This document shows positions 7,862 through 58,044 of a DNA stretch of 64,000 bases, in pieces. Source of the stretch: a virus; the IMG/VR virus record IMGVR_UViG_3300025013_000002, positions 1-64,000 of that record; one strand, 5' to 3'. The first letter of the stretch is position 1. Every line of letters starts with the position of its first letter. Position numbers and translations under genes: made by a program. The notes beneath the pieces were generated by a model that worked only from the letters and a program-made list of their open reading frames with translations, ran no database searches and was not told where the DNA came from.

Positions 7862-8871
7862 GCTGCCTCCTTCCAGACCGTCATCATCCGGTCGATTTTA
7901 TTTTCGTCGTACCCAAGCTCGCCAAGGTACAAAGCCAGTTCCTCGTCGAGCGACCGGTTGGCAATTTCTTCCTGCTCTCCATTTTCCTGAACCAGAACCT
8001 GCAAAGCTTCAGGAACCTTCACCAGCTTGACGTTGGCCTGAGGCGCTGAGATGGTCTTCAACTCAGGAACGGTGCCAGTGACCTCGATCCGGTAGAAGTC
8101 GGTGTCGTTCAGAGCGGGGAATTCTTCATCCGCTCGAATTCGGATCTGAATTAGTGAAGGCAAATTTGTGGCTAGACGCTCGTACTTCGCGGTGCCTTTG
8201 TCAATGGTCAGGAGGAGAACTCCGGTATCGACCGAGGATTGAAACTCCTTGTTGATCGGGTGGTTCGTGTAGACTAGCTTGCCTAGTTCGTACCTGCTGT
8301 GAATGTCCCCTACGACCGCAAGATCGAAAGGCTCCAGCAAATGATCGACATCAATTTCCTCCTTGACGAACTGATTGTAGTTGCAGCGGAAATGCGAGAT
8401 CAGGATGTTTGTGTGCCCTTCTTGAAACTCGAACTGGACTCCTGCGGGTGGAATTTCCTTTGGCAGGTTGCAGTGGTTCATGAAGTGGAGCGAGAAACGG
8501 TCGTCAGGAAAATGAGCACTCCAATCGGTGCTTCTGTAATTAACTTGGATCGTTTTGTCCTTGCCCATGTCTAGGTGCTTGAAGGTATCCTTGCCAGGCC
8601 CAATCGTACAATGATTCCCGGAGACTAAGTAAACTTCGACCCCCGCCTCACGACACATTCTGAAGAAAATTAATGCAAGCTCCTGCTCATCTAGGTCAGG
8701 CTCACATCTCTCAAAAACATCACCTGCGACAATAAGCTCTGCGTGATGGTGAAGGCAGGCTTCAATTAAATAGTCGAAGAGGCAAAAATAGCGTTCGATT
8801 TGCCAGGTTGTAGGAGCCTCTCGCCTGAGCCAGATGTGCCAATCTGCGGTACAGATAAATTTTTTAGGCAA
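7858..8871 (-). CDS. sbcD: SbcD/Mre11/gp47-like nuclease
   Basis: 337 residues, TTG start. Motifs of the Mre11 family appear in order: CTADWHIW, VAGDVFE, LVSGNHC, ILISHFR and VVGDIHSR, giving the metal-binding Asp/His/Asn set. The partner of the SbcC-like ATPase; together they trim and resect DNA ends. The start lies within the end of an HNH endonuclease gene, which appears to have inserted just upstream. Confidence 0.93.
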   Translation of the reverse strand: MPKKFICTADWHIWLRREAPTTWQIERYFCLFDYLIEACLHHHAELIVAGDVFERCEPDLDEQELALIFFRMCREAGVEVYLVSGNHCTIGPGKDTFKHLDMGKDKTIQVNYRSTDWSAHFPDDRFSLHFMNHCNLPKEIPPAGVQFEFQEGHTNILISHFRCNYNQFVKEEIDVDHLLEPFDLAVVGDIHSRYELGKLVYTNHPINKEFQSSVDTGVLLLTIDKGTAKYERLATNLPSLIQIRIRADEEFPALNDTDFYRIEVTGTVPELKTISAPQANVKLVKVPEALQVLVQENGEQEEIANRSLDEELALYLGELGYDENKIDRMMTVWKEAA

Positions 8872-9403
8872 CTAGCGCCTCCTCGCTAAAAGGTTGATGA
8901 ACACTTCTGGCTTTCTTGGCTACAACCTCTGCTTCCGCAATTGTGTCAAATCTTCCGAAGTACATATAAGGGCCTCCTCCTGGCTCCTTGACTCGGACCG
9001 TCCATTTGCCAGATCTAGCACATTGGGACACCCCACGCACCCCTGACTTACTTCTTTTAGTGGCACCTTTTCTGTTCTGTCCATTTTCAGATTTTGTTGC
9101 CAACCTCAAGTTGCTCTTCCTGTTGTCACACGGGTTGTGGTTAATGTGGTCTACGTCGAAGCCTTTTGGTGCGTCTAACAAAAATCTTGACATGACAACA
9201 CGACTACTGGTACCCGACACCTTGCCATACACGACTACATAGCCGCCGCGTACCGTTAAACACCAATGCAGCCCACACTCTTTTAGTCGAGCAACATCTT
9301 CCGTGTCTACCAGAACTACCGCTATATGATTTCGCCCTTTTATCGTTAGTTCCGTAGTTTTGTCATTAATTTCTTCATATTCGTTGGTTACCCTACGACG
9401 CAT
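8864..9403 (-). CDS. HNH homing endonuclease with AP2 DNA-binding domain
   Basis: 179 residues. The central HNH motif is DVDHINHNPCDNRKSNLR, followed by an AP2-type domain (GVRGVSQCARSGKWTVRV ... YFGRFDTIAEAE). This is the standard layout of free-standing phage homing endonucleases, which cut a related DNA site and spread by repair. It lies between the SbcD-like gene and an unknown gene with only short overlaps, so it has not obviously broken either. GGAG lies eight bases before the ATG. Confidence 0.93.
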   Translation of the reverse strand: MRRRVTNEYEEINDKTTELTIKGRNHIAVVLVDTEDVARLKECGLHWCLTVRGGYVVVYGKVSGTSSRVVMSRFLLDAPKGFDVDHINHNPCDNRKSNLRLATKSENGQNRKGATKRSKSGVRGVSQCARSGKWTVRVKEPGGGPYMYFGRFDTIAEAEVVAKKARSVHQPFSEEALVA

Positions 9404-9795: not shown

Positions 9796-10029
9796 TTAGG
9801 CCACCTCGTCTTCCGGGTCCTTGTCGCATCCGAACAAGGTGTCCATCCCGTACTCCTCGTTGGCTTCACAGGCAATGCCGTGGAGGATCAGATCAATCTC
9901 TTCGAGGGCATCGGTGTCGATCTCGTCGAAATTGCGAAGGCCGCAGAGACGATCAAGCACGTAGGCGCGAGCCTCTTTGAGTCGCTCCGGGTTGATTGCT
10001 AGGTGATAAATTTTGAATTCTTCGTTCAT
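9796..10029 (-). CDS. Small acidic protein, unknown function
   Basis: 77 residues with AAGGAG before the ATG. Helical N-terminal half (INPERLKEARAYVLDRL), acidic C-terminus. It is the first gene transcribed after the tRNA region on this strand. Family not recognised. Confidence 0.75.
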   Translation of the reverse strand: MNEEFKIYHLAINPERLKEARAYVLDRLCGLRNFDEIDTDALEEIDLILHGIACEANEEYGMDTLFGCDKDPEDEVA

Positions 10030-10048
10030 TTTGGATCTCCTTAACTCG

Positions 10049-10124
10049 TGGAGCCACTGACAGGAATCGAACCCGCAACATCTTGGTTACAAGCCAAGCG
10101 TTCTTCCATTTGAACTACAGCGGC
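10049..10124 (-). tRNA. tRNA-Thr(UGU)
   Basis: Reads as a full cloverleaf on the minus strand: acceptor GCCGCTG pairs CAGTGGC, D arm GTTC...GAAC, anticodon stem CTTGG/CCAAG with loop CTTGTAA giving anticodon TGT, and T loop TTCGATT. The CCA end is encoded. Phages carry tRNAs to match their codon use or to replace cleaved host tRNAs. This is the only tRNA found in the window. Confidence 0.95.
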
Positions 10125-10129
10125 TTAAA

Positions 10130-10640
10130 TTAGTGTCCCGTATGAGGCCGGGACCACGCCTACTCCTGACTCACCCAGCACGTCTACCGGCCACCTCTGG
10201 AGTGTGGTGGTTGGCCTCGGACTTTCGCCTGCTAAGACGCTTAAGTTTCCGAGGCGCCATAAGTGTCCCTCACGGGACGTAGATTTCCGGTTCCCTCATT
10301 ACTACTCAACTGCACCGGAAGGTCGTTGAGCTATCCCCATAACCAGCAGGTCTCTGGAGCAGACTTCCACGCGGTCTGCCAGCGCTGCCTGAATAACTAC
10401 CGTAGAGTACAGGCTCCTCCCCTTTCACACGTTTCAGGTCGCTCATGTTAGGCTTGGGTACAACCACCGAGAACACAGGTTTGAGCTTCAAGCGCCTAGC
10501 AACTAGGCACCTCAGAGGCTTGCGCTCCAACTTCGCTGTACCAGCTACCAGCCTTAGCCAAATAAGGCCATGCCCTCAATGACGTGCTACTCGTCCGCGT
10601 CTACACCTCCTGTTCTGAGGGAGAAAAGTGAGCGGGGTTA
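10130..10640 (-). ncRNA. Large structured non-coding RNA candidate next to the tRNA
   Basis: About 500 bases have no convincing gene on either strand but are rich in self-complementary arms. On the minus strand I can pair GCCTTA/TAAGGC, a GTGCCTAG/CTAGGCGC hairpin with a three-base loop, GCAGAC/GTCTGC, a 5-bp stem closed by a GTGA (GNRA) tetraloop, GCCTCGGA/TCCGAGGC, and GTCCCG/CGGGAC. CTCAAC/GTTGAG plus TTCCGGT/ACCGGAA form an H-type pseudoknot. GNRA loops favour the minus strand, the tRNA's strand. Size, position beside a tRNA and complexity recall the ROOL/GOLLD class of large phage RNAs, but I cannot assign a family. Confidence 0.6.
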
Positions 10641-10644
10641 TTTC

Positions 10645-10854
10645 CTACAGAAACGCCTGCTTCATTTTCTCAGCGAGCCTGGTTGCTTCCAGACTTTCAC
10701 CAAGGTGCTTCTCGCGAGCATTCATCAGATCCGAAATCTTGGCTTCGATGCCTTCTGCGGCAGTGTCGTGCTTCGAGGAATGGGCCTCAAGTTCACGGAT
10801 GGCCTTCTGGAAGGTACCCATGATTTGGTCGATGGTTTTACATTTGAGGAACAA
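10645..10854 (-). CDS. Small coiled-coil protein
   Basis: 69 residues, mostly helical with heptad-like spacing (IDQIMGTFQKAIRELEAH, then KISDLMNAREKHLGESLEAT). Clear GGAG-type site upstream of the ATG. It ends five bases before the structured RNA region. Function unknown. Confidence 0.75.
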   Translation of the reverse strand: MFLKCKTIDQIMGTFQKAIRELEAHSSKHDTAAEGIEAKISDLMNAREKHLGESLEATRLAEKMKQAFL

Positions 10855-11144: not shown

Positions 11145-12071
11145 TTAGAATACGATGTTGTCGAAGTCGGCGTCTTGTGCTCCTGCACCCAGGCCACCAG
11201 AATTGCCAGCCCCTTTACCCTCGATGCTCATTCCGGGAGGAAGAGATTTCTGCGCTTCTTCCTTGCGGGTAGCCGAGATCAACTTGCGCTGGGACTCGAA
11301 GCCCCTTACGGACTCGTCAACCGCCTTAACGGTCTCGGTCAGCAGCTTGCGCTCTTCGAGGGGATACGGGCGATCCTTCTGGAGAACCGGAGTGATGATC
11401 CAGTAGACGTTGGTGCCGTTGATCTGCTGCTCGGTGGTCAAGAGGGTCGGGAAGAAGTAGAGGGGAAATTTCCCCGCCGAGTCCAGGTACTGTTTGAAGG
11501 GCAGGAAGCTGGTACCCTTGAAGTACATGATCGCCCCTTTGGTCTCCTCACCTACCTTGACCTGCACGAAAACCTGATATTGACACGTACACTTTTCGTC
11601 CTTGAGCACGTTCTTCGCACGACGCGGGCAGGTTCTGGACATGCACTCGTGGCCCAAGTTGTCACCTACGGCTTTCTCGCCTGGATCGAGCACGAGTTGG
11701 CTCTGGCAGATGTGCTTCTTGGCGTCCTTGACTTTCTCAGAGTCCGGGAAGAACGAGAACTTGGTCCCGAATTTCACGATGGTGATCTCAGGATTGGCTC
11801 CGCAGTCGATGCCGATGTCCTCGATAATCGTGTTCTTGCCTTCTTGCTTCGTGATCTGGTTGTAGACAAAGTTCCCCATCGGGACGGTGTTGCCTTTGGT
11901 GTCCTTGATCGGGTACTTGTTGACTTTGAGAGTCGGGGTCTTATCGAACGAAGTGTTGGTGGCCTGCCCGGTCGCACCAAGAATTTCCCTGATCTCCTCT
12001 GGAGTCATGCCTTCAAAAAGGTCTGCGAGGTTCACTGTTGCTGCGTTAGTTTTTTCAGTTGCTTTTGCCAT
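11145..12071 (-). CDS. Putative single-stranded DNA-binding protein
   Basis: 308 residues from the ATG at 12,071, which follows AAGGA; longer readings cross the leader. A central cysteine/histidine cluster (KHIC, GHECMSRTC, KCTCQY) could bind zinc as in T4 gp32. Flanking beta strands (FVQVKV, GAIMYFKGTSFLPF) fit an OB-like core. The C-terminus is glycine-rich and ends in DADFDNIVF, like the acidic-aromatic tails by which SSB proteins recruit partners. Position at the head of the replication block and its own terminator suit an abundant protein. Homology is not proven. Confidence 0.5.
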   Translation of the reverse strand: MAKATEKTNAATVNLADLFEGMTPEEIREILGATGQATNTSFDKTPTLKVNKYPIKDTKGNTVPMGNFVYNQITKQEGKNTIIEDIGIDCGANPEITIVKFGTKFSFFPDSEKVKDAKKHICQSQLVLDPGEKAVGDNLGHECMSRTCPRRAKNVLKDEKCTCQYQVFVQVKVGEETKGAIMYFKGTSFLPFKQYLDSAGKFPLYFFPTLLTTEQQINGTNVYWIITPVLQKDRPYPLEERKLLTETVKAVDESVRGFESQRKLISATRKEEAQKSLPPGMSIEGKGAGNSGGLGAGAQDADFDNIVF

Positions 12072-12127
12072 TTTGAGATTTTCCTTAAATAATTTGAGAT
12101 AGTTGGGTTCCCTCCCTGATTTTTTAA

Positions 12128-12141
12128 ATTCATTTGTGAAT
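12128..12141. repeat. ATTCA-N4-TGAAT palindrome
   Basis: Copy ATTCATTTGTGAAT upstream of the binding-protein gene, between a terminator and a TTTAAAA stretch that could serve as a -10 region. Confidence 0.65.
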
Positions 12142-12148
12142 TGTTGGT

Positions 12149-12179
12149 GGAAAAGAGGAGCCCTCTTTGGGAGGGCTCC
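12149..12179 (-). terminator. Rho-independent terminator
   Basis: On the minus strand GGAGCCCTC pairs with GAGGGCTCC around CCAAA, followed by TCTTTTCC. It ends the transcript of the gene stopping at 12,188. Confidence 0.85.
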
Positions 12180-12187
12180 GATCAAAA

Positions 12188-12588: not shown

Positions 12589-14601
12589 CTAGAAGTTGAT
12601 TTTGAGGGTGCGGGTGAAGCTACCCTTGACTCTGCAAAGTACGCTGCTGCGCTGCGTTGAGGAGAACCCGATTCCACTGAGTTGGTTCTCGGACTCCTCG
12701 ACCTTCATCTTGGAGCCTACGACCTCGAAGACCTTCCGGTGCGCGTTCAGTTCCTCGTTCAGGAACTCGTTGTAGAAGCCCCGCGCCTTGCCTTCGTTCA
12801 CGCACTTGTCGAGCATGAAGAAGAAGTGCTTGTTTCCTACGCCATGCCCGTCCCAGTGGTTCGGGGAGTGCATGAGGACGTTGACCTTGTGGAAGGTCTG
12901 CGTCGGGAGGCCCCATACGACCTTCGATGTCTGCGAAGAAGGCAGCGACTTGACGATCTCGAATCCGTCCTTGTGGCTGTACTTGATCTGGGCGACTTCG
13001 ACATAATCCCTGGGGTGCATCACCTTGGGGTACGCGAAGTTGTAGGTGGTCCCAGCGAACTCGATCTCGACTTCGAAACCGAAGTTGTCGCTGTTGCGCT
13101 GGGAGAACTGGTGGACCATCAGCGTATAAACGCCCTCGCGCATCTGGCGCTTGTCGGAGTAGTAAATATTCTCCGCAGGATCGGTCCTCATCCCGTCTGC
13201 GCCGTTTGCGTCCAGGTCGAGGCACCCACCATTCGGAGATAGCCTGCGGCGGTTCGAGTAGTAGATCTTGTGGCCGTTCGGCTCGATCATGTGGAAGTCG
13301 AGGTCGTCGGTATTGTTCCACGCCAGCCTGCAGCAGAGGTCGCCTTCGACCTTCCCACCAGCCTTCTTGACGCGCTCCTTGATCGAGTCCGTCATGTCGC
13401 CTGTGTACGACCACGAGAAGTTGTTCGGCCACTTGAACATGCCCTTGGCGTCAGAGTCGATGGGAGCGATCAGGCTGACCATGTTCCCGGCGTGCTTGTT
13501 CTCAAGCAGGATCTCCAACGACTCCACCTTCGGTAGAACATTGGAGATAAATTCTGCGATCCCGATTTCTTCAACTCGGTCGAAACTTTTCATGTTCTCG
13601 GGAACAGCCCCAGCCAACTCCTCGAACACATTAGTCATCCGCTGCTTGGATTCCCTGTTGGCGAACAGGATGTTGTTCACGGTGATGTCTTCCATGACCG
13701 CGTACCTGCGCTGGAGGGCAGAGGTTAACCCGAGTTCCTCGATTGTCCTCTGCGCCTTCTCGATCATGCCCTTGGTGATCAGAGCGCTGGGGCGCTTGTA
13801 GTTGCTAGGCGCCACCTTTGCCTCGAACGATCCTACAGACGGCTCCAGGTCCTTGCCTTCGGAGAGATCCACCAGCAAAGTCCCGATGACCGTGCCTCGA
13901 ATTTTGGAGACAGACTGGGGCACGCTCTTCACCCGCGACCAGCAGAAGATGTCGTGCTGCGAAGCCGGAAGCTTGGCGAATTCCTTCTTCAGCTTCAAGA
14001 AGCTCTCCACCGCGAACTTGTGTTCCTCGCCCCGGTACAGCGAATTCTGCGCGATCAGCTCCAGCACTGTGTCGATGGAATCCAGAGAGATTTCCTTGAG
14101 GCTCCTCAGGAAAACGTCCTTGGTGCTCCTGGACTCAGACAGTCTGGCGCCGATGTCGAGCCCTTTGACCACTCGGTCGGTCGGGATCTTGATGTAGAAG
14201 TGCTCCCAGGTAAGCATTTCTCCCGAATCCGTCTGCTGGAAGTTTTTGTCAACCCCGGCTACGGACTCAGGGTGGAGGAAGATGTTGCTGATTTCGCTGG
14301 ATTTAACCAGAGTGGAAAGCGCGTCCGAAACTACCTGATAGAAGCCGCCGGGCTGGGCGTCCCAGATACTGACCACTTTCCCGTCGATGATGGCAACTAC
14401 GTCGCCAACCGCTCTGATAAAGGATCGACAGCAGGTGCAATCGTGCTCCGTGCGTTCTTTGTAGATCGGATCGGTGCCTTCTGGGAAGCTGCTGAGGTAG
14501 GTCTCCCAGAGAAGATCCTTGGAAACCTCGGCGCGAAAAAGCTCGTGCTGCTTCATCACATCGAACTGCTTTTGAACCGCTACCTTGAAATCGTTGAACA
14601 T
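12589..14601 (-). CDS. Large phage protein with DUF2135-like domain
   Basis: 670 residues from the ATG at 14,601 with AGGAGG five bases upstream. Residues 1-400 show no motif I recognise except a CTCC pair near residue 50. Residues about 420-560 (CRLAWNNTDDLDFHMIEPNG, NGGCLDLDANG, VYTLMVHQFSQR) resemble the DUF2135/YfaP-type domain, a beta-rich domain with conserved D and N residues. Biochemical role unknown. It has a double-operator promoter and comes right after a small-RNA terminator, so it is a separately regulated unit with the gene at 12,188. Confidence 0.75.
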   Translation of the reverse strand: MFNDFKVAVQKQFDVMKQHELFRAEVSKDLLWETYLSSFPEGTDPIYKERTEHDCTCCRSFIRAVGDVVAIIDGKVVSIWDAQPGGFYQVVSDALSTLVKSSEISNIFLHPESVAGVDKNFQQTDSGEMLTWEHFYIKIPTDRVVKGLDIGARLSESRSTKDVFLRSLKEISLDSIDTVLELIAQNSLYRGEEHKFAVESFLKLKKEFAKLPASQHDIFCWSRVKSVPQSVSKIRGTVIGTLLVDLSEGKDLEPSVGSFEAKVAPSNYKRPSALITKGMIEKAQRTIEELGLTSALQRRYAVMEDITVNNILFANRESKQRMTNVFEELAGAVPENMKSFDRVEEIGIAEFISNVLPKVESLEILLENKHAGNMVSLIAPIDSDAKGMFKWPNNFSWSYTGDMTDSIKERVKKAGGKVEGDLCCRLAWNNTDDLDFHMIEPNGHKIYYSNRRRLSPNGGCLDLDANGADGMRTDPAENIYYSDKRQMREGVYTLMVHQFSQRNSDNFGFEVEIEFAGTTYNFAYPKVMHPRDYVEVAQIKYSHKDGFEIVKSLPSSQTSKVVWGLPTQTFHKVNVLMHSPNHWDGHGVGNKHFFFMLDKCVNEGKARGFYNEFLNEELNAHRKVFEVVGSKMKVEESENQLSGIGFSSTQRSSVLCRVKGSFTRTLKINF

Positions 14602-14639
14602 CTGATCCTCCTTTTGTTTTGTCTTCAATCCATATTTGA

Positions 14640-53967: not shown

Positions 53968-54260
53968 ATCGTCCCTCCGTGCTTTCGGATAATCTCCCGG
54001 ACAACTTCCAGAGGGACGTATGAATAAACGGGAGAACCTTCGTAGGTATGATAAGGAGCCAAAAGTTCTTCTGGTTTGTTAGGGAACCCAACCTCGACAT
54101 CCGAGTACAAAGCGAGCTTGAAGAAGTCCATTGTCTTAGGACAACAAGCGTGACGATCGCTTGCCTGGACACTCATCATAAACCCGTCTTTGCACACGAT
54201 CTGAGGGAATAAAACTCCCTGGGTCCTTGTGGGAAGTTTGATTTCAATTTTGGTGGACAT
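53964..54260 (-). CDS. Conserved phage protein
   Basis: 98 residues. CKDGFMMSVQASDRHACCPK, VEVGFPNKPEELL and YSYVPLEVVREIIRKHGG fit a phage family with unknown function. First gene behind the promoter at 54,348. Confidence 0.82.
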   Translation of the reverse strand: MSTKIEIKLPTRTQGVLFPQIVCKDGFMMSVQASDRHACCPKTMDFFKLALYSDVEVGFPNKPEELLAPYHTYEGSPVYSYVPLEVVREIIRKHGGTI

Positions 54261-54347
54261 TTGGATCTCCTTTGTAATTACGGGCTATTTCCGAAATGGG
54301 CGGATAGGGATGAGGGGAAAGAACTTTATAAAACCTTTGTCTTGGCG

Positions 54348-54376
54348 TTTATAGCGGGTTTGGATCTTTTCGTCAA
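54348..54376 (-). promoter_or_regulatory. Promoter at the right end of the minus-strand accessory block
   Basis: TTGACG (54,371-54,376), 17-bp spacer, TATAAA (54,348-54,353). Upstream lie AATTCACATGTGTATT and a GTGA-type palindrome (54,408), so both families meet here. Confidence 0.75.
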
Positions 54377-54407
54377 GCATTTTAATTCACATGTGTATTT
54401 AAATTGG

Positions 54408-54425
54408 AATGTGAAACCTCACTTT
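54408..54425. repeat. GTGA-N4-TCAC palindrome
   Basis: AATGTGAAACCTCACTTT, upstream of the 54.35 kb promoter. Confidence 0.7.
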
Positions 54426-54602
54426 TATGGTTTATTTGACGGGCGAATCAGGTAAACTACGCAAACTTTGCATAGCTGGTGTAAAACCTTATTAAATACG
54501 CAGGTTTAGTCAGGTTTCTAGCGGAGCTTGGATATTGAGTTATGCCTGCGGTGGATTAGGGAGGATGCAGGATCAGTCAATTTTCCAGCGAAGCTTTAAT
54601 CA

Positions 54603-54646
54603 TGAGGAAACCTGCGGTTGAATTGGGAGCTTCGCAGGTTTCCTCA
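54603..54646. repeat. Large stem-loop element, copy 2
   Basis: TGAGGAAACCTGCG and CGCAGGTTTCCTCA pair around a 16-base loop, followed by ATTTT on the plus strand. Neighbouring AGCTTCGCA/TGCGAAGCT arms overlap it. Degenerate pieces of the same words occur from 54,490. Could terminate plus-strand transcripts. Confidence 0.75.
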
Positions 54647-54689
54647 ATTTTAATGCGAAGCTGGTTGGCTTGAGGCGGACTGCGAGGTA

Positions 54690-54872
54690 TTAAAGCACTT
54701 CTTTCTCCGTGACGAAGTATTCGCGCTCGAAACCTTCGGGAGCGTTGATCTGCCATTCCTGGCCTTTGGCGTGCGCCTTTTCGCTGGAGGAAAAGAGGAA
54801 GGTTTCAACCCAGCGATCATCCGAGTAGGGCTCAAGGGTGTCTTCAATCTGCGCGAGTTCATAGACGATCAT
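54690..54872 (-). CDS. Unknown small protein
   Basis: 60 residues from the ATG at 54,872 behind AAAGGAG. LAQIEDTLEPYSDDRWVETF and a C-terminal strand pair. Conserved style but unidentified. Confidence 0.7.
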   Translation of the reverse strand: MIVYELAQIEDTLEPYSDDRWVETFLFSSSEKAHAKGQEWQINAPEGFEREYFVTEKEVL

Positions 54873-54976
54873 TTTAATTTCTCCTTTTTCTCGTTTCCCC
54901 AAGTTCCAACGCGTTTCCCTTCCTAGATCAAAAAGGATATACGCGCCGGTCCTGGGGGTTTTTAGGTAGTTCGTTT

Positions 54977-55006
54977 AGGCGCTATGTGAAATTTCACATA
55001 GCGCCT
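54977..55006. repeat. Perfect 30-bp palindrome containing the GTGA-N4-TCAC core
   Basis: The core ATGTGAAATTTCACAT is extended on both sides by AGGCGCT/AGCGCCT, so all 30 bases are symmetric. The longest perfect member of the second family. Confidence 0.85.
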
Positions 55007-55097
55007 CTCAAGGTCGAGCTACGATCCGCGCCCTGGACCTGCAGGGCACCTCTTTTGCTCCATCTAAAGACTGCGAACATCCGTTTGCAGAGTTTAG

Positions 55098-55117
55098 AAA
55101 ATGTGAAATATCACTTT
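55098..55117. repeat. GTGA-N4-TCAC palindrome
   Basis: AAATGTGAAATATCACTTTT in the non-coding region; a weaker relative AAATGTGAATTTTCATATT lies at 55,150. Confidence 0.7.
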
Positions 55118-55178
55118 TATTTGTTCCATTATGTAACACATCCTGGATGAAATGTGAATTTTCATATTTTCTAAATAG

Positions 55179-55214
55179 AGCGGGACCGGCTCGATGCTTT
55201 GGGCCGGTCCCGCT
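55179..55214. terminator. 12-bp GC-rich hairpin
   Basis: AGCGGGACCGGC/GCCGGTCCCGCT with a 12-base loop. Short T-rich tracts follow on both strands (CTTTGTT and CTATTT), so it could act on either. Confidence 0.65.
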
Positions 55215-55227
55215 TTGTTGCCTCAAA

Positions 55228-55246
55228 AATGTGAACTTCACATTTT
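55228..55246. repeat. GTGA-type palindrome, shortened spacer
   Basis: AAATGTGAACTTCACATTT, symmetric around a single central base, next to the 12-bp hairpin. Confidence 0.72.
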
Positions 55247-55679
55247 TAATGAGCTTTTCTTTAACCAGTGAACCGATTGCCTCATGCCTCGCCTTTCTTA
55301 TCAGCGACACAACTATTAGCAGGACGGTCAGTATCTGGCGTTTAAACGGCCCTTCTGTTTAGATGTATGGTAGCACCTCCCCCGCTTCTTATCTCTCGAC
55401 TATAAGGGGATATTCCGCCTTTCCAATCTGTTACCTTGTACCGTCAGGCAGACTCCCATAGTTGGGGCCTCTGTCTGCAGTCATTTGGATTGATACAAGT
55501 CAAGGATCGAACGCGCTAAATCTTGTGCTGATCCTGTCGGCAATAGGTGACAGGTTCTAAGGTTTCGTGCCCTATAGCGGGACACTACTTTCTCCGTTTG
55601 GCATTTTGCTAGAATGCCTGTACAGGTGTCAAGCTGTACACGTCATGCCTCAATAGTCTCAATGAGCGGGGAAATGATA

Positions 55680-55740
55680 CAAGGGTCTTGCTCTGTAGCT
55701 TCTAGATCCTACACCTAGAAGCTACAGAGCAAGACCCTTG
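55680..55740. repeat. Perfect 26-bp inverted repeat
   Basis: Twenty-six bases beginning CAAGGGTCTTGC repeat in inverted form after nine bases. It lies 25 bases beyond the stop of the gene ending at 55,766, so on RNA it would form one of the strongest hairpins in the window. A competing smaller hairpin (AAGGCCCTTGCC/GGCAAGGGTCTT) overlaps its left side on the minus strand. Confidence 0.85.
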
Positions 55741-55765
55741 CCGGTTAGGGCAAGGGCCTTTGGCG

Positions 55766-56200
55766 CTAGGCAGAGGCACCGGCCTTTTTAGCCTCTTTCA
55801 TGGCTTTTTCCAGAGCTGCGAAAAGCCCCTCATTCCCTGCACATTTCGTCATGACGGCCTTAACGTAGCTGTCAACGTTGAACTCTTTGGTGCAGTTGGA
55901 GTTATCACCGCTGTTCCTGATGAAGTCATACAGCCTCTTGAGGAAGCGCCCACACTCGCCTTTGTCCTGAATAGCCTCGGTGTATTTCTCGGGAACGTCG
56001 CGGCCAGCCTGCAGCATGGCGTTGTGTACCGTGTGAACGTAGCCGGTTGCCTTTTCCGGCACGCCGAAGTGCGTTTCGATGGTGGAGATGGTATCCATCA
56101 TGCGGGTCTGTTGCGAGGCGTAGGCTTTGCTCTCTGCGTCAACGGTTTTCAGAATGGCGGTTCTAGCTTTGATACCCATGGACTCGATTTGCTTTTTCAT
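55766..56200 (-). CDS. Unknown helical protein, leftward gene at the switch
   Basis: 144 residues from the ATG at 56,200. Largely helical (IKARTAILKTVDAESKAYAS; ALEKAMKEAKKAGASA). The ribosome site is weak (GGGGTAT) and an 80-base leader with small hairpins separates it from its promoter, so translation may be regulated. Flanking hairpin and sequence style differ from the accessory genes. Function unknown. Confidence 0.7.
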   Translation of the reverse strand: MKKQIESMGIKARTAILKTVDAESKAYASQQTRMMDTISTIETHFGVPEKATGYVHTVHNAMLQAGRDVPEKYTEAIQDKGECGRFLKRLYDFIRNSGDNSNCTKEFNVDSYVKAVMTKCAGNEGLFAALEKAMKEAKKAGASA

Positions 56201-56284
56201 GATATACCCCTTTGGCCTATGGCCGGTTGTGGTGCAAGGCACCGTGTATGCTTCCCAGGTGAGCCGTTCGTTCATGTTGATACA

Positions 56285-56313
56285 GTTATAACAGCTACCT
56301 TGTTTCAAGTCAA
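56285..56313 (-). promoter_or_regulatory. Leftward promoter at the strand switch
   Basis: TTGACT (56,308-56,313), 17-bp spacer, TATAAC (56,285-56,290). No palindrome of either family overlaps it, unlike most other promoters here. Confidence 0.75.
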
Positions 56314-56392
56314 CACTATTTTTCACATTTATTTTAAAATAATTATTCTTGTGTAAAACAAGGTACTTAGGCTGTTAATTCATATTAGGTAG

Positions 56393-56500
56393 CTCCCCTC
56401 GGTCGATCCCTACGACCTCCCCTCGGTCGATCCCTACGACCTCCCCTCGGTCGATCCCTACGACCTCCCCTCGGTCGATCCCTACGACCTCCCCTCGGTC
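56393..56500. repeat. 24-bp tandem repeat, 4.5 copies, at the strand switch
   Basis: The unit CTCCCCTCGGTCGATCCC plus TACGAC is repeated four times without a mismatch and is followed by 12 more bases, then a G-rich tract. It lies between the leftward promoter (56,285) and the rightward promoter (56,596). Identical tandem units of this length are typical of iteron origins or partition sites, but no initiator gene is next to it. Confidence 0.92.
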
Positions 56501-56572
56501 ACTGGGGGCGGGGTGAAAGTTTTAATGAGAGCCAGGCTCCCTTACCCATTCACACACACGCTACGAGTTAAA

Positions 56573-56586
56573 ATTCAGATGTACAT
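56573..56586. repeat. ATTCA-N4-TGAAT half-site
   Basis: ATTCAGATGTACAT, one good half, ten bases before the -35 of the rightward promoter, as at 58.2 kb. Confidence 0.55.
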
Positions 56587-56595
56587 ACTTTTATC

Positions 56596-56624
56596 TTGAC
56601 ACGTAGCGAGTAAAGTGTTAAGGT
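56596..56624 (+). promoter_or_regulatory. Rightward promoter at the strand switch
   Basis: TTGACA (56,596-56,601), 17-bp spacer, TAAGGT (56,619-56,624). Drives the gene at 56,655. Confidence 0.72.
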
Positions 56625-56654
56625 TCAATACAGGCAAAACAAAGGAGAAATAAA

Positions 56655-56981
56655 ATGGAACGAGTAAAAATTGGAGATAAATTTCACGCTTGGACAGTGA
56701 TAGCAGGCCCCATCATGAAGGGCAAAGGTCTCAAGTATTGGACATGCCAATGTGCTTGTGGGACTCAGAAGGAGATCCAGCAGTACTCCCTACTGAATGA
56801 CCGCACCCATAGTTGTGGGTGCCAGAAGGTTTTCTCCGAGGAAACTAGAAAGCTCCTGTCCGAACTCAGGAAACAGCGGCCCGCCCCAAGAGCTAAGGGG
56901 TTCACCCAGACTGAAGAGACGAGGGCGAAGATAAGCCAGGGTGCCAAACAAAGGTGGGAGGAGAGGAAGGCGCAGCCATGA
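56655..56981 (+). CDS. Homing-endonuclease-associated DNA-binding protein
   Basis: 108 residues behind AAAGGAG. VKIGDKFHAWTVIAG and YWTCQCACGTQKE ... SCGCQK form a zinc-type domain that often precedes HNH or AP2 domains in phage proteins. The C-terminus TEETRAKISQGAKQRWEE resembles a NUMOD DNA-binding helix. No nuclease centre is present, so it may be a remnant or a free DNA-binding protein. Confidence 0.7.
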   Translation: MERVKIGDKFHAWTVIAGPIMKGKGLKYWTCQCACGTQKEIQQYSLLNDRTHSCGCQKVFSEETRKLLSELRKQRPAPRAKGFTQTEETRAKISQGAKQRWEERKAQP

Positions 56982-57155
56982 CCCTACCCTACCTGCTTCG
57001 CACTGTTACCAGGGGTTCTACTCAAATTAGCCCACAGGGTTCCTCAATCCAGCCTGCTTCGCACTGATCCTGACCGGTACCTGTGGTCCAACTAGACGAG
57101 CCTGTGGCTGCACCGGGATAAACAAAATACCAGCGCCAACCCAAGAGGAGTTAAA

Positions 57156-57536
57156 ATGAAGACGATCATACGGAATCACCCAGCAACTTCCCAGGAAGCT
57201 ATCCAGTTCACCCAGCACCTCCTCCAGTCCTTCCCCATCACCACCAGAAGGCAGATCACCATCGAGTTCAGGTCTACTAACTCTATTGGGAGGGGGAATT
57301 GGGGCATGGCGCACGATTACAAATTCAACAACACGCTCTTTCTGGAACTGGCCCTTGGGACTTCCAAGGAACGCAGAGATCTCCAGGATCTCCTCCACAC
57401 AATTGCCCACGAGTACTGCCACGCGCTCCAATACGACCAGGAGAAGCCTGCATCCTGCACTGAGGCGGACCTCTTCGGAGACAAAGAGGTGCCCAAGTTT
57501 CTGGAGGAGAACCTGCGGATGAAAAAGGCTGCTTAA
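57156..57536 (+). CDS. Zinc metalloprotease-like protein (HExxH)
   Basis: 126 residues behind AAGAGGAG. LLHTIAHEYCHALQYD carries HExxH and a downstream EADLFGD supplies a likely third ligand. SprT-like or minigluzincin fold; whether it cuts proteins is unknown. The 175 bases upstream hold two copies of CCTGCTTCGCACTG and no gene. Confidence 0.8.
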   Translation: MKTIIRNHPATSQEAIQFTQHLLQSFPITTRRQITIEFRSTNSIGRGNWGMAHDYKFNNTLFLELALGTSKERRDLQDLLHTIAHEYCHALQYDQEKPASCTEADLFGDKEVPKFLEENLRMKKAA

Positions 57537-57555
57537 AATTTAACAGGAGGAACAA

Positions 57556-57735
57556 ATGACCAAAATTTACTACGAGATCGACATCACCAAGGCACCGGTA
57601 GGACCGCCTGTGCGCTTATTTAGGGAAGGCTTCGATACGCGCCGTCTGAATGAAGAGCGCCTGGAGGACTACTACCGGTACATTGAGGAGTTCAAGAGGC
57701 AGCGGGAGTTAGCCCGGTCCAAACCCAGCAGCTAG
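57556..57735 (+). CDS. 59-residue charged protein
   Basis: ATG behind CAGGAGG. EERLEDYYRYIEEFKRQREL is a charged helix. Last gene before a 560-base spacer. Unknown. Confidence 0.65.
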   Translation: MTKIYYEIDITKAPVGPPVRLFREGFDTRRLNEERLEDYYRYIEEFKRQRELARSKPSS

Positions 57736-57770
57736 AGCACCTCTCCCCTATTGTACCTGGGGTAATGCTC

Positions 57771-57829
57771 CATATATGATACGTTAAGCCTAAAAATATG
57801 ACTTAATGATTCATATTTGATACGTTAAG
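57771..57829 (+). repeat. 18-bp direct repeat, two copies
   Basis: CATATATGATACGTTAAG and CATATTTGATACGTTAAG differ at one base and lie 41 bp apart start to start. They may be protein-binding sites. Confidence 0.75.
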
Positions 57830-57980
57830 AGGGCAAAAGTAATGTGGGATTTGAACCGGAGGTTGGATTTTGGGATTGCTAAAATTTTGGGGATGTGGGT
57901 TCAGAAAGGATATACTTTGGGGAAATGCAAAAATGTCAACTAATGGTTTACAAATTTGTGGATTTTCAATTTGTTACCTA

Positions 57981-58044
57981 GCGAACCACAGGTTTCCTCA
58001 GGTGGATCGCTTCGCGGGAGAACATGAGGAAACCTGTGGTTCGC
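57981..58044. repeat. Large stem-loop element, copy 3
   Basis: GCGAACCACAGGTTTCCTCA pairs perfectly over 20 bp. The 24-base loop matches that of copy 1 except at a few positions. Compensating changes in the stem (CCGCAGG here is CCACAGG, and its partner changes too) show the pairing is maintained. Confidence 0.85.

Follow-up and report, generated by a model that had tools for sequence, protein, structure and literature searches.

A probably structured non-coding RNA with a conserved 5′ module in a phage replication/recombination operon

Results

Gene setting of the interval

The window analysed here is a stretch of 64,000 nucleotides of viral DNA (IMG/VR record IMGVR_UViG_3300025013_000002, positions 1 to 64,000). 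Its minus strand contains a gap of ~520 nt (10125-10644) between the stop codon of a 69-aa ORF (10645-10854, minus strand; phrog_2380, function unknown) and a tRNA-Thr (TGT) gene (10049-10124, minus strand), and the gap has the same orientation as the surrounding minus-strand replication/recombination genes, which form its operon. The tRNA gene is bracketed by CTTAA repeats at 10040-10044 and 10124-10128 and is followed by a 77-aa ORF that belongs to no family (9796-10029, minus strand). Consistent with the first-pass annotation, which had described ~510 nt devoid of a credible ORF, the longest reading frames lying wholly inside 10125-10644 are a minus-strand frame of 74 aa that begins at TTG and a plus-strand frame of 62 aa. 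Neither a promoter-like site (sigma-70 scan) nor a terminator-like site was found in the interval.

Other features of the window deserve mention. An HNH_3 plus AP2 endonuclease gene (8864-9403) lies between the phrog_16618 gene and an SbcD-like gene, and it is missing from that place in the second lineage described below. Positions 12592-14628 encode a 679-aa phrog_1735 protein of unknown function that has relatives in more than 500 GenBank phage records, the closest being those of phiCbK-like Caulobacter phages (~55%). The GC skew switches sign at ~54000-58000, close to a 449-nt ORF-poor gap (55311-55759) that may represent an origin or a divergent promoter region.

A second lineage divides the interval into two modules

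Relatives were reached by way of a neighbouring protein (11145-12185), which led to four IMG/VR contigs. One of them, 3300025000_000334, carries the window sequence, identical across 1.9 kb. Two others, L002 and L003, come from two assemblies, do not differ from one another in this region and represent a second phage lineage. Comparison of the two lineages resolves the interval into two parts: a 5′ module common to both (10358-10645, minus strand; L002 8005-8301) and a 3′ module restricted to the window lineage (10134-10357, minus strand). The second lineage retains the 5′ module together with its flanking genes and lacks both 10134-10357, which was not found elsewhere in that lineage, and the tRNA-Thr gene, so that the 77-aa ORF directly follows the RNA. 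The adjacency to tRNA-Thr that had been emphasised in the first-pass annotation thus holds in the window and not in L002, where the RNA is present and the tRNA is not. Because the tract CTAATTTAAG (10124-10133) is shared by the window and the second lineage, and because the CTTAA repeats flank the tRNA, gain or loss of the tRNA and gain or loss of the 3′ module appear to be separate events. The RNA of the second lineage also contains two copies of a 19-nt repeat, CCTGTRCTCTACGGTAGTT (L002:8177-8261), of which the first has diverged in the window.

Within the searches made, no further homologues were found in IMG/VR, INPHARED, PLSDB or GTDB contigs. Searches with blastn for distant homologues in phages and plasmids returned tRNA or chance matches only, and a search through neighbouring proteins added no RNA relatives. 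Exact-pattern scans of IMG/VR and GTDB contigs recovered the known contigs plus chance matches; because a scan of this kind recovers a relative only if it contains the selected words, diverged homologues may have escaped detection. A covariance model (R1) built from the core of the 5′ module matched only the two known lineages among 29 related virus records, with a single site in the window. In phages ~63% identical in the phrog_1735 protein, synteny stops after the next gene, and neither phrog_2380 nor phrog_16618 was found.

Conservation and structural constraint of the 5′ module

With the first 60 alignment columns set aside, the window and the second lineage agree in the 5′ module at 217 of 234 positions (93%), and over the last 74 nt of the module at all but one (73/74). 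Four-fold codon sites in eight aligned flanking genes, a comparison that leaves out the SSB gene owing to an out-of-frame alignment, are 59-79% identical between the same lineages. The best-conserved core spans 10358-10585 (minus strand). Single-base indels separate the two lineages inside the module, which makes it unlikely to be coding.

The consensus fold of the module comprises 13 helices and 81 pairs. Nine pairs differ between the lineages: three are changed on both sides, six show one-sided changes of the wobble type, and none is broken. The three double compensatory changes all fall in the helix 9 hairpin, AGGTGCCTAG-TTG-CTAGGCGCTT (10490-10512, minus strand), and helices 6-8, which surround it (10450-10554, minus strand), show wobble-type changes only. 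Helix 13, the hairpin GGCAGAC-CGCGTGGAA-GTCTGCT (10358-10380, minus strand), is the last of the conserved module, and L002 diverges from the window immediately after it.

Since the consensus structure came from the same two sequences, we compared it with nulls in which the substitutions were redistributed afresh and the structure was refolded each time. The alifold energy of the minus strand is −94.6, compared with a null mean of −77.3 (sd 4.0), and none of 300 nulls is as low; the structure conservation index is 0.93, compared with 0.75 (sd 0.035), and again none of 300 nulls reaches it. The same test on the plus strand is not significant, and significance on the minus strand persists when the compensated hairpin is removed. 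Among 30 tests in all, the module gives the most extreme value (z = −4.9); the 28 coding controls, fourteen coding pieces on both strands, extend down to −3.0, and the null is therefore somewhat liberal. Support from a pair-shuffle control of the consensus was weak (64/500). Substitutions across homologues thus preserve structure in the 5′ module on two lineages, and covariation support is thin because these are the only two distinct sequences known. Judged from these alignments, 10358-10645 on the minus strand is very probably a structured RNA.

Folding energy and local motifs

The first-pass annotation had described at least eight stable stems on the minus strand. Compared with shuffled sequences, the folding energy of the whole minus strand is ordinary (z −0.32), with 32 of 100 shuffles equally good, and that of the whole plus strand is slightly better than its shuffles (z −1.10). 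The 3′ part folds somewhat better than shuffles (z −1.72). For the 5′ part, the window sequence folds worse than its shuffles (z +1.11), and the L002 sequence is ordinary (z −0.46). With values this ordinary or weak, we rejected folding energy as evidence of structure.

Two motifs noticed earlier lie in the 3′ module. The hairpin GTCCC-GTGA-GGGAC, with its GNRA loop, is present at 10265-10278. The strings of the reported H-type pseudoknot (10285-10330) also exist, 10325-10330 pairing with 10305-10310 and 10314-10320 with 10285-10291. Nevertheless, when the whole interval was dinucleotide-shuffled, 48 of 200 randomised sequences contained an H-type pseudoknot with an equal or better score, as did 21 of 200 for the 3′ part alone, and we rejected the proposal that the reported one exceeds chance. 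Of the large structured minus-strand RNA envisaged at the outset, the 5′ ~290 nt are well supported; the 3′ part, with its pseudoknot and GNRA loop, is missing from the second lineage. The beyond-chance signal is comparative, consisting of conservation and structure-preserving change, and it lies in the 5′ part, which contains neither pseudoknot nor GNRA loop.

Discussion

What kind of element is encoded at 10358-10645? Searched with Rfam 15, the interval yielded only the neighbouring tRNA at the gathering threshold and nothing credible even at E ≤ 10. ROOL and GOLLD, the classes to which the RNA had been tentatively compared, are frequently found near tRNA islands (PMC12286853), and the phage setting, the neighbouring tRNA and the many helices are features that the present RNA shares with them. 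However, the conserved unit here is ~290 nt, compared with 574 positions in the ROOL model, so the analogy in size fails, and proximity to a tRNA is not kept in the second lineage. Neither the ROOL (RF03087) nor the GOLLD (RF02032) model matched anywhere in the record at E ≤ 10, although for ROOL this is a weak test, since the model was also silent in all 14 control genomes. GOLLD likewise combines one conserved and one variable region, but its conserved region is the 3′ one (PMC12286853), whereas here it is the 5′ half. We consider it most improbable that the RNA is a ROOL or GOLLD member too diverged for its Rfam model. Almost as little credence attaches to structured single-stranded DNA, such as a replication element: the location among replication genes would suit it, and, as single-stranded DNA tolerates G-T pairs, strand asymmetry taken by itself is compatible with it, but the GC skew does not switch at the interval and does so near 54-58 kb. 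A remnant of an intron, ribozyme or other mobile element is brought to mind by the HNH endonuclease gene ~720 nt downstream, which is likewise lineage-specific, and by the portions of the interval that vary between lineages. Against it, models of group I introns, group II introns and ribozymes all failed to match, no interrupted exon was found, the upstream ORF and the tRNA being intact, and the conserved 5′ part is distinct from the part that varies; we regard such an origin as highly unlikely.

The alternative to which we give the most weight, while still thinking it rather unlikely, is a cis-acting leader (a riboswitch, an attenuator or a translational control element) that would regulate the 77-aa gene downstream together with the part of the operon that follows. 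The orientation of the RNA matches that of the operon, and the L002 copy of the module stops just ~10 nt short of the probable ribosome-binding site for the 77-aa gene. In the window, however, 225 nt and a tRNA intervene, and tRNA processing would sever the link; moreover, no credible Rfam riboswitch or leader matches, and the interval contains no terminator-like site. That the module persists despite this changed downstream context, a ribosome-binding site in L002 and an extra domain and tRNA in the window, leads us to favour, as a matter of judgement, action in trans.

We propose, with moderate confidence, that 10358-10645 on the minus strand encodes a structured non-coding RNA of ~260-290 nt that is co-transcribed with its operon and acts in trans. 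Because no promoter-like site was seen within the interval itself, the simplest reading is that the RNA would be transcribed together with the surrounding minus-strand replication/recombination genes and released from the operon transcript by processing. In the window lineage the RNA would bear an extra 3′ domain of ~225 nt, followed by tRNA-Thr, and 5′ processing of the tRNA by RNase P would place the 3′ end of the RNA near 10125. The folded RNA would then probably work in trans.

Finally, no described family matches this RNA, yet it is of a kind already known, that of large structured phage RNAs without an assigned role. It is possible, and we suggest it tentatively, that it represents a previously undescribed class of trans-acting phage RNAs in which a fixed 5′ core is joined to an exchangeable 3′ domain inside a replication/recombination operon; with only two lineages, from related samples, such a class is not yet definable. 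Phages have yielded few large structured RNAs so far, and the roles of those few are open. Here the conserved core can be tested separately from the tRNA and the 3′ domain that are particular to one lineage, so the role of the core is an experimentally clean question.
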